From: Methanofollis ethanolicus | GTDB taxonomy: Archaea > Halobacteriota > Methanomicrobia > Methanomicrobiales > Methanofollaceae | Direction: 5' to 3' | Assembly: GCF_001571385.1 (NCBI RefSeq) | Contig: NZ_BCNW01000001.1 | Span: forward strand, 2,046,001-2,110,000 | Length of the DNA: 64,000 bases | Shown: piece after piece, positions 22,014-58,930 of the stretch | Numbering within the stretch: the first letter of the stretch is position 1 | Layout: every line of letters begins with the position of its first letter | The notes under the pieces: generated by a model | What the model saw: the letters and a program-made list of their open reading frames with translations, nothing else | Database searches by the model: none | What the model was told of the DNA's origin: nothing | Translations under genes and position numbers: made by a program

Positions 22014-22337
22014 ATGCTGCCCCTCGAGGTCTACGACGCGGCCGCCAATGCCTTCAGACTCATCGGGGCCATCATCATCATCTACGGCGGGATCAAGGCG
22101 GCTGCGGAGACGCTGGGGAAGGAGGTGCTCGGGCGGCCCCTCGGGTACGGTGAGATCAGGCGGGATTTCACCATAAAAATCGTTTTCGGCCTGGACTTCC
22201 TCATCGCCGCCGACATCCTCCAGACACTCGTCACGCCCTCACAGGAGGAGATCCTCTTCCTCGGCAGCATCGTCATCATCAGGACGGTCCTCGGGTACTT
22301 CCTCACCAAAGAGGCGACCGAGTTCAATCTGGACTGA
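22014..22337 (+). CDS. DUF1622 membrane protein
   Basis: 107 residues with three hydrophobic segments (about residues 15-28, 50-65 and 78-95) and the LGRPLGYGEIRRDFTIKIVFGLDFLIAADIL pattern of DUF1622, a family of small inner-membrane proteins without known function. ATG 22014 is chosen; GTG 22005 would add three residues. It stands alone, followed by the composite repeat. Confidence 0.75.
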   Translation: MLPLEVYDAAANAFRLIGAIIIIYGGIKAAAETLGKEVLGRPLGYGEIRRDFTIKIVFGLDFLIAADILQTLVTPSQEEILFLGSIVIIRTVLGYFLTKEATEFNLD

Positions 22338-22355: not shown

Positions 22356-22511
22356 GGCTCTGTAGAATTCCTCTTCCATAGGTTGATAGCGCATGCTGAT
22401 CCTCTGCCTTCCCCTCCCCCTTCGCCAGGGGACTTTTGCCCCAGGCCACTCAAAAACCTACGGTCCGTGGCACATCGAAGATGTGCACGCACAGGAAAAT
22501 CTTCGATTTTC
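22356..22511. repeat. left part of an older MITE-like element
   Basis: Begins GGCTCTGTAGAATTCC, then the subterminal block GGTTGATAGCGCATGCTGATCC also seen in the 53.7 and 58.8 kb copies, a GC hairpin and an AT hairpin (GAAAATC-TTC-GATTTTC, 22494-22510). It is interrupted after 22511 by a second complete element. Its remaining part resumes at 22755. No right terminal repeat was found. Confidence 0.65.
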
Positions 22512-22746
22512 GGCTCTGTAGAAACCCTCACCTTTTCCGTGTATGAACGTGACCCAACCGCCTTCCTCCATCTTTGCACCGGGGGACTTTTGCCCCCGGA
22601 CCCCCGCGCGAGGATTGGACCTCAAAAGGGCAAACGTGCATCTTGAAGAGGGGACTGCCCTCCACCCCCCTATCCTCATGGCGAGGGGGGCCAGGGGGTG
22701 GCAGCCCCCCGGACGAGACACTCCAGAATAGGATTTCTACAGAGCC
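22512..22746. mobile_element. complete MITE-like element nested in another copy
   Basis: 235 bp bounded by GGCTCTGTAGAAA on the left and TTTCTACAGAGCC on the right (13-bp perfect inverted repeats). The 8-mer CGATTTTC occurs immediately before (22504-22511) and after (22747-22754), a clean target duplication. The interior holds GC-rich hairpin modules (CCGGGGGAC-TTTT-GCCCCCGG near 22588) and no coding capacity. It must be moved in trans by a transposase encoded elsewhere; the end sequence and 8-bp duplication are like those of the IS6 family. Confidence 0.85.
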
Positions 22747-22754
22747 CGATTTTC

Positions 22755-22888
22755 CGTATTCTCGACTCCCTTCGGTCGTCCCCGCTCAGGATTAGACCGG
22801 GGAAGACAGAACAGATAACCCTGAAAGGGGGATTGCTGTCTACCCCACTATCCTAATGGAGGGGGGAACGGGGGGCTTTGCCCCCCGG
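22755..22888. repeat. right part of the interrupted MITE-like element
   Basis: Continues the older element after the nested insertion with a CCCCGCTCAGGATTAGACCG block and ends in CGGGGGGCTTTGCCCCCCGG. It matches the right half of the 17.1 kb repeat. The following 110 bases to 22998 contain no gene. Confidence 0.55.
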
Positions 22889-22998
22889 AGGAGAGCGCAG
22901 ATCCACCACCTTCCCTTCAATCTAGATCCGGAGTTTCACCCCCCACAGCGAAGACTTCGTCTGCTTTCCCCCTTGCCGGATTTCCGGTTGTCTGAGTT

Positions 22999-23682
22999 TC
23001 AGATCCCCAGGATCCCGATGATGTCCCTGATGTCGTGGAGAACGAAGTCCGGCCTGCAGAGGGGGGCCGGGCCGTCGCTCCTGTCGCCGTACAGGGCGTA
23101 GGCCGTCTTCATGCCGAGACCCTGCGCCGGTTCGATCTCGCGCCTGATGCTGTCGCCGACGACCATCGCCTCCGCGGCGTTGGCAGGGAGGGCCCTGAGG
23201 GCGTAGAGGAAGGACGCAGGGTCTGGCTTTCTCTGCCCCGAGATATCGGGGGTGACGATACAGGAGAAGTACTCGCTGAGCCTGGCCTTCTCAAGCCTCC
23301 TCTTTGCCTGGGAGGAGTGGGCGTCGGTGACGATTGCAAGGGGAATACCCGCGTCAGAAAGAGAGGAAAGGGTCTCGGCCGCCCCCTCGTACGGAGAGAT
23401 GGCGGCGAGTTTCGTCTTCTCGTAGACGGTGCAGCACCGAGGAAATGACGCGGCAGGGGCGTTGATGTCCCTGATATAGTCGAGGATGTTTCCCGGGTCC
23501 TCGAAACCGACCCCCGGCCTCCGGAAGTACTGGTAGAGATCTTCGCCGTCGCCCACTTTGAGAAAGTCCACGACGGCATGGCATGCCGCCTGCTTTGCGG
23601 TGACGAAGTCCCAGAGCGTGTTGTCCATGTCGAAGAGGAGGGCCTTTACCTCTCTATTCCGAGGGCCAGAAGATGTCTGCAT
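22999..23682 (-). CDS. HAD superfamily hydrolase
   Basis: 227 residues with all HAD motifs: I DMDNTLWDF (nucleophile Asp, residues about 18-26), II VTDAHSS, III lysine in GQRKPDPASF, and IV GDSIRREIEPAQ. The cap insertion after motif I is helical, giving a phosphatase/haloacid-dehalogenase subfamily I enzyme. The substrate is unpredictable. The start overlaps the PIN-domain gene by 37 bases and no later in-frame start precedes motif I, so the two are very probably co-translated. Confidence 0.85.
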   Translation of the reverse strand: MQTSSGPRNREVKALLFDMDNTLWDFVTAKQAACHAVVDFLKVGDGEDLYQYFRRPGVGFEDPGNILDYIRDINAPAASFPRCCTVYEKTKLAAISPYEGAAETLSSLSDAGIPLAIVTDAHSSQAKRRLEKARLSEYFSCIVTPDISGQRKPDPASFLYALRALPANAAEAMVVGDSIRREIEPAQGLGMKTAYALYGDRSDGPAPLCRPDFVLHDIRDIIGILGI

Positions 23683-37303: not shown

Positions 37304-37595
37304 GGCTCTGTAGCAATTCGGTTTTAGCGTACCTGTGCCAGGGGGCTGCCGCCCCCCAGCCCCTCGAAAACCTCCGGTTTTCTCATGCTCACTTCGTTCG
37401 CACCCTGCCATCAGGATAGGGGGGTGGAGGGCAATCTCCCTCTTTTGGATATCCGGTCCGTCTTCCCCGGTCCAATCCTGAGCGGGGGTCCGGGGGCAAA
37501 AGTCCCCCGGTGAACAGTACGGGCAGGGGATCCGCGCGTCCCTCCCTGCGATCGCGGGGAGACATCACTCCCGGCATGAGGATTTCAACAGAACC
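37304..37595. mobile_element. MITE-like element (292 bp)
   Basis: Left end GGCTCTGTAGCAATTC and right end GGATTTCAACAGAACC are imperfect inverted copies of the family termini. The interior has the AT hairpin (GAAAACC-TCC-GGTTTTC, 37367-37383) and inverted GC hairpins ending CGGGGGCAAAAGTCCCCCGG. Flanking 8-mers (GCTCTGAG and AAAAAAGT) do not match, so this copy has drifted or recombined. No gene in the gap 37236-37628. Confidence 0.75.
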
Positions 37596-42301: not shown

Positions 42302-42624
42302 ATGTCAGCGGTCCCTCTCTGAAGGTTCGCTTGGCAGAGGGAGACCTGACACTCTTTTTCTCAAAAATTCTTCCAAGATTTATTTCATGAACAGCGTGAA
42401 CTCATGGGGCATTCTGTGATTTTCGAGTTTATCCCCTCCCATCTCGCATAGATATTTTCCAATTTAATGCTTCGAGGGCGCTATCCCCATATCCGGAGCC
42501 GTGAGCATGCCGAAAATCAAAGATTTTCTCGAACTCGCTATCGCTCGCAGCCCCGGGATCCCAATATCGGGATCGGTGCGGGATGGCGTATGGGAGGATC
42601 GGATCACTTTTATCCAACATCTCT

Positions 42625-53689: not shown

Positions 53690-53994
53690 GGCTCTGTAGA
53701 AACCCTTGCGGGAAAGTACTTCCTGACGTGATGGGAAAAATTCTGTTCAGAAGTGCCTGGTCCGGGGGGGCTGCCGCTCGAAAAACTACGTTTTTCTCGA
53801 TTCCCGTCGGTCGCCCTCCCATACCCCCTGCCATTACGATAGGGGGAGGGATGGCCGCCGCCTCCAGGACTCCGACCCTTTCTTCCCGGGACCAATCCTC
53901 GCGCGGGGGTCCGGGGGCAAAAGTCCCCCGGCGAACGGGAAGGCAGAGGATCAGCACGCACTATCAACCGATGGAGGAGGATTTCTACAAAGCC
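53690..53994. mobile_element. MITE-like element (305 bp) with 8-bp target duplication
   Basis: Left end GGCTCTGTAGAAACCC, right end GGATTTCTACAAAGCC. GTTCGTCC flanks both sides exactly (53682-53689 and 53995-54002). The interior contains an AT hairpin (GAAAAAC-TAC-GTTTTTC), inverted GC hairpins and a subterminal GATCAGCACGCACTATCAACC block that is the reverse of that in the 58.8 kb copy. No coding capacity. Confidence 0.85.
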
Positions 53995-58813: not shown

Positions 58814-58930
58814 GGCTCTGTAGAAAACCTCCTGCAGAGGTTGATGGTGCGTGCTGATCCTCTGCCTTCCCGTTCGCCGGGGGCATAGTCCCCCGGCGCA
58901 GGCACACCAGAAAAGGTTTTCAACAGAGCC
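58814..58930. mobile_element. short MITE-like element (117 bp)
   Basis: The smallest complete copy: left GGCTCTGTAGAAAACC and right GGTTTTCAACAGAGCC (one mismatch in 16). Flanks are AAAAAAAG (58806-58813) and TAAAAAAG (58931-58938), a near-perfect 8-bp duplication. It keeps one GC hairpin (GCCGGGGGCATAGTCCCCCGGC) and the subterminal GTGCGTGCTGATCCTC block. Confidence 0.8.

Follow-up and report, generated by a model that had tools for sequence, protein, structure and literature searches.

A MITE family of Methanofollis ethanolicus shares its ends with an IS5-family insertion sequence

In Haloquadratum walsbyi, the MITE HqIRS39 pairs with the broken transposon HqIRS12 (PMC3119063). Archaeal members of the IS6 family have been reported to produce 8-bp target duplications and to have ends beginning with GG, and IS6-type MITEs exist in haloarchaea (PMC6807381). 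Moreover, studies on insertions of ISs into REP sequences described transposases that favour intergenic palindromic repeats (Tobes and Pareja 2006, PMC1525189). Our literature search retrieved no paper joining Methanofollis, genome sequence and transposase, nor a relevant one on MITE and Methanoculleus.

Here we analysed a 64,000-nucleotide stretch of the M. ethanolicus genome (2.71 Mb in three contigs), hereafter the window, which corresponds to C1:2046001-2110000. Two convergent genes in it are separated by a spacer of about 660 bp, in which a 235-bp element is embedded in older repeats. The features of the spacer, from left to right in window positions, are as follows.

ends at 22337, plus strand: 110-codon frame, left neighbour of the spacer (from the ORF list)
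22356-22445, plus strand: roughly 90 bp from the left end of a subfamily-B MITE, comprising TIR GGCTCTGTAGAAT and body; about 20 other copies share 81-90% identity with it at their ends
22446-22503, no strand assigned: left part of the hairpin module, with GGCACATC-GAA-GATGTGC and GAAAATC-TTC-GATTTTC (the latter runs through 22511); 88% identical to the uninterrupted paralogue C1:434849-434906
22504-22511, no strand assigned: left copy of the target duplication, CGATTTTC, 8/8 identical to the right copy
22512-22746, no strand assigned: inner MITE of subfamily A, 235 bp, with ends GGCTCTGTAGAAACCCTCAC / GGCTCTGTAGAAATCCTATT and a GC-rich hairpin body without coding potential
22512-22524, plus strand: left terminal inverted repeat GGCTCTGTAGAAA, 13/13 with no mismatch
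22734-22746, minus strand: right terminal inverted repeat GGCTCTGTAGAAA, 13/13 with no mismatch
22747-22754, no strand assigned: right copy of the target duplication, CGATTTTC, 8/8 identical to the left copy
22755-22779, no strand assigned: rest of the hairpin module, with tail CTCGACTCCCTTCGGTCGT
22780-22894, no strand assigned: right outer part, a GC hairpin like those of MITE bodies and resembling their distal half, without a right TIR
ends at 22999, minus strand: right neighbour of the spacer (from the ORF list), which we take to be HAD-like from reading its sequence, not by search

The preliminary description of this locus had proposed a MITE-like insertion with perfect 13-bp ends and a perfect 8-bp duplication, and the coordinates of the element, both of its ends and both copies of the duplication proved exact. 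The open reading frames of the 235-bp element are chance frames only, none of them a transposase gene, and its body folds with a z score of -4.3 against shuffled sequences. Altogether, the element combines terminal inverted repeats, a duplication of constant length, shortness without a transposase, near-identical copies and ends shared with an IS, all of which are hallmarks of a MITE. The segment 22512-22746 is a genuine, well-supported MITE insertion of an ordinary kind.

A genome-wide search for further copies, which the preliminary description had recommended and whose failure would have spoken against its proposal, revealed that the 235-bp DNA matches 76 places in its own genome. Six of the other matches have at least 94% identity or are near full length, five of them at 94-97%. 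Matches were found in 11 of the 12 genomes of the genus and in none of the 49 genomes from other genera of the same order; the plasmid records gave no match to the element. The genome contains 146 occurrences (73 in each orientation) of the 12-mer GGCTCTGTAGAA with at most one mismatch, compared to 10 for a reversed control. Within about 266 kb of DNA around the matches, to which the census was confined and outside which elements with strongly decayed ends may be missed, 43 inward-facing pairs of ends have matching 8-bp flanks (31 perfect, nine with one mismatch and three with two), although some of the weaker members may have arisen by chance. When 33 end pairs lying 150-320 bp apart were chosen blind to their flanks, the flanks were identical over exactly 8 bp in 14 of them, and over every other length between 4 and 12 bp in one at most. 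The excess of GGCTCTGTAGAA ends and the identity of the 8-bp flanks are far above chance. The duplicated 8-mers follow the consensus G-A-(A/T)5-C and are 72% AT, compared to 50% in the flanks and 40% in the fetched DNA. Most members measure 117-550 bp, and longer ones, up to 954 bp, hold other repeats or the broken IS. The window itself contains a 305-bp member with the perfect duplication GTTCGTCC (53690-53994) and a short 117-bp member flanked by AAAAAAAG/TAAAAAAG (58814-58930). In addition, the degenerate inward ends GGCTCTGTAGCAA / GGTTCTGTTGAAA at 37304-37595, 292 bp apart and without a clear duplication, probably mark an old family member.

We further searched for empty sites by joining the two flanks of the element with a single CGATTTTC. 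One uninterrupted relative with a single CGATTTTC lies at C1:434849-434906 (88% over 58 bp), and further uninterrupted relatives lie at C1:186109-186196 (79% over 89 bp) and C1:1865772-1865819 (83% over 48 bp). The two nearest sister species (G009 and G010) keep the genes on either side in synteny, at 89-94% DNA identity, and the 235-bp element is absent from their orthologous spacers, which are too diverged around the site to display the exact empty 8-mer. Thus, the empty site that the preliminary description had suggested looking for exists as a paralogue, and the sister spacers lack the element, but the exact orthologous 8-mer is not preserved. The element-free spacers and the uninterrupted paralogues are direct evidence of insertion.

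As to the source of the transposase, the preliminary description had pointed to the IS6 family. In favour of an IS6/IS26-type enzyme acting on these ends, the 8-bp duplication and the GG-starting ends are likewise reported for archaeal IS6 members, and haloarchaea have IS6-type MITEs (PMC6807381); the duplication length, however, is common to other families and thus not diagnostic. A profile search for PF13610 (DDE_Tnp_IS240) gave no match in the genome, compared to positive results in five of 14 control genomes, and the same ends bracket IS5-family transposase genes, here and in congeners, that have duplications of their own. An IS6 origin is therefore very unlikely. The IS1595 family also makes duplications that fit a length of 8 bp, but a search for its transposase (PF12762) found no match in the genome; this source was ruled out as practically negligible.

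The genome has a single PF01609 (DDE_Tnp_1) match, within a 954-bp element (C1:1588915-1589868) that is bounded by the ends GGCTCTGTAGAAACCC.../GGCTCTGTAGAATTCC... and the perfect 8-bp duplication CGAAAATC. Its transposase matches the NCBIfam IS5 model NF033579 (transpos_IS5_2) in two pieces, with 57 and 111 bits. Superposition against a 1008-bp element of the congener G006 showed 88% identity over the aligned bases; since 1, 1 and 52 bases are missing relative to the latter, the frame of the transposase is broken. The G006 element has an open frame of 301 codons that scores 237.3 bits with NF033579, whose cutoff is 140, and it has the ends GGCTCTGTAGAA/GGCCCTGTAGAA and the duplication GAACAATC. 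Two elements of another congener, G004, encode the same type of transposase between GGCTTTGTTGAA ends with 8-bp duplications, and the G004 relative scores 231.8 bits against the same cutoff. These congener relatives thus exceed the curated cutoff of the IS5 model, and their ends and duplication length are those of the MITE. Similar ends and 8-bp duplications also accompany same-type elements in one Methanoregula and in one metagenome-assembled genome of the Methanomicrobiaceae; in the Methanoregula copy, the 12-bp GGCTCTGTAGAA ends are perfect, the duplication is TGCCGAAT and the transposase frame is interrupted. Judging by the relatives of the transposase, the kin of the source genome belong to the order that includes Methanoregula, Methanoculleus and Methanogenium.

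Using the G006 transposase as a protein query, we found that G006 and G004 hold intact copies, that the nearest sisters G009 and G010 have remnants at best, and that the own genome has no copy besides the broken 954-bp one. The intact frames (L091:1444-2346, L110:1435-2361 and L116:1141-2067) extend up to the very last codon of their elements with no internal stop, and the translation stop therefore comes from the flanking target DNA. A further stretch in the congener G007 (L105:1545-2939, 1395 bp) has related ends and the perfect 8-bp duplication GACAAAAA, and contains a DJ-1/PfpI-type frame, possibly a passenger gene, beside a transposase remnant; we did not count it among the ISs of this family, as only a remnant of the transposase is left. 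One subgroup of IS5, ISH1, is characterised by an 8-bp duplication, and the source IS may belong to it, as the duplication length fits, though it is not diagnostic.

The ends, the duplication, the copy number, the empty paralogous sites, and a dead IS together with an open-frame relative having the same ends, all observed directly, argue that this MITE family was moved in trans by an IS5-family transposase whose ends it shares with an IS of about 1.0 kb, a reading to which we assign a probability of roughly 0.9. We propose that the MITE is a short DNA segment, internally deleted or captured, that carries the terminal recognition sequences of this IS. The transposase would bind its 13-18 bp ends in trans, and the MITE would be excised, presumably by cut-and-paste chemistry, or copied, and then inserted where AT-rich DNA is cut with a stagger of 8 bp. 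Repair by the host would leave CGATTTTC on each side. The site hit would have been the AT-rich arm of a hairpin repeat within an older truncated MITE-like repeat between the two convergent genes. Comparison of the MITE bodies against the IS showed that they share only the terminal 17-21 bp; descent of the MITEs by internal deletion of this particular IS is therefore not demonstrated. As the only detectable transposase gene of its kind is frameshifted, the family is probably immobile in this genome now, apparently orphaned unless an intact IS arrives.

A more complex version has at least two IS5-type transposases at work, the 1.0-kb one acting on ACCCT/ATCCT ends and another on the GGCTCTGTAGAATCGGGCAT ends of members of about 500-550 bp. 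The last 53 bp of a 550-bp member of the own genome are 94% identical to the end of a 1488-bp G006 element with GGCYYTGTAGAAT ends and a different IS5-type transposase (NF033580-like, in a split frame), and end types are mixed within many elements. However, the first 12 bp are common to all end types, and the 1488-bp element has a split frame and may be a MITE broken by an unrelated IS rather than a source. It is possible, though rather unlikely, that some members had a second IS5-type source.

The outer layer is less regular than the inner element. Its left end, 22356-22368, matches the TIR at 12 of 13 positions, and the alignment with subfamily-B members begins exactly at this TIR. No right TIR was found up to 23000, nor an outer target duplication, and 22888, given as the right limit in the preliminary description, is therefore not a demonstrated element boundary. 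G009 and G010 have the distal right part (22869-22915) at the orthologous site but not the left end; thus, the right outer part predates the 235-bp insertion at this site. The missing right TIR and this sharing mark the outer repeat as a copy that is either decayed or composite and whose own insertion is not demonstrated. The proposal of an older host from the same family holds for the left end, which comes from a subfamily-B MITE, but not for a complete older member, as only the left TIR is present and the immediate target is another repeat. Likewise, two rounds of transposition are reasonable for the family, in which 11 of the 43 elements sit in sequence found uninterrupted elsewhere and nesting is thus common, but they are not demonstrated at this locus, where the outer piece lacks a right end and a duplication. 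It is conceivable, and a serious if tentative alternative, that no MITE was inserted into a MITE at all: the inner element would have hit a separate intergenic array of hairpin repeats, and the 22356-22445 fragment would have arrived or been truncated independently. The TIR-less right part that is ancestral in sister species without the left end, and the different repeat module that forms the immediate target, agree with such a history; by contrast, the outer left and right parts align in order with both halves of subfamily-B copies, as a single decayed copy would.

The module hit by the inner element (22446-22779 without the element) is distinct from MITE sequence. In this module, CGATTTTC forms one arm of the hairpin GAAAATC-TTC-GATTTTC, which is followed by the tail CTCGACTCCCTTCGGTCG. 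A strict version of the tail has 46 matches in the genome, compared to none for the reversed pattern. The hairpin upstream of the tail usually has a stem of 6-7 bp or more, and its arms co-vary, as seen from the paired variants GAAAATC/GATTTTC, GAAAACC/GGTTTTC, GAAAGCC/GGCTTTC and GAAGGGC/GCCCTTC. The hairpin-plus-tail repeat of about 40 bp, which also occurs at window 42494-42546, often tips larger GC hairpins. Sometimes its copies follow each other in tandem at a distance of about 40 bp, and two tail types then alternate. A search of the GC hairpins against known RNA families gave nothing close to a gathering score.

By eye, about seven of the 43 elements lie in or beside this module (positions 601317, 1267166, 1588915, 1808034, 1865232, 2068512 and 2568289). 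The expected number is 0.05 genome-wide and about 0.4 for intergenic DNA only, assuming a footprint of 70 copies of 45 bp and an intergenic fraction of 13%. Since this footprint is assumed and the arms of the module obey the AT-rich target rule seen in general, we regard the hot spot as a lead and not as a result. The broken IS (C1:1588915) and a 550-bp MITE (C1:1808034) hit the same 8-mer in two copies of one repeat. The idea that the IS5-type transposase recognises or favours extruded AT-rich hairpins, and that the module is an undescribed modular repeat with paired stem substitutions that tips larger GC hairpins, seems unlikely on present evidence. Nevertheless, the apparent hot spot and the hairpin-plus-tail repeat are the least ordinary aspects of the locus, and a target preference for the module would deserve somewhat broader attention, should it prove to go beyond a liking for AT-rich DNA.

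The 235-bp insertion is a further case of an already known phenomenon, with the mobilising family revised from IS6 to IS5. The revision replaces a guess with a testable pair: a MITE family found across a genus of methanogens, and an IS5-family transposase whose frame is open in congeners and broken here. This is a natural example in which MITEs have outlived their transposase. In addition, the family accounts for much of the intergenic repeat content of the genus and offers ready markers for comparing strains.

Compared to known systems, the locus resembles the IS6/IS26 family in its 8-bp duplication and ends starting with GG, but differs in that the genome lacks an IS6 transposase and the ends belong to an IS5-type element. 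The IS5 family (NF033579) supplies the transposase of the partner element; this element, about 1.0 kb long, has its ends and 8-bp duplication in common with the MITE, which itself has no transposase; placement in an IS5 subgroup is provisional. The insertions of ISs into REP sequences share the preference for intergenic palindromic repeats (PMC1525189), but they concern bacterial ISs and REPs, whereas here the MITEs are archaeal and meet a hairpin-plus-tail module; their preference may amount to nothing beyond the AT-rich rule. The nearest published parallel is the Haloquadratum MITEs beside broken source transposases, which are likewise noncoding, shorter than 500 bp, share only terminal repeats and duplication length with the IS, and outnumber it; all copies of the source transposase are broken there despite recent mobility, and mobile elements are often inserted into each other (PMC3119063). 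The present family differs from them in archaeal class and in its ends and bodies, with a GC-rich hairpin body and a hairpin module as the insertion site.
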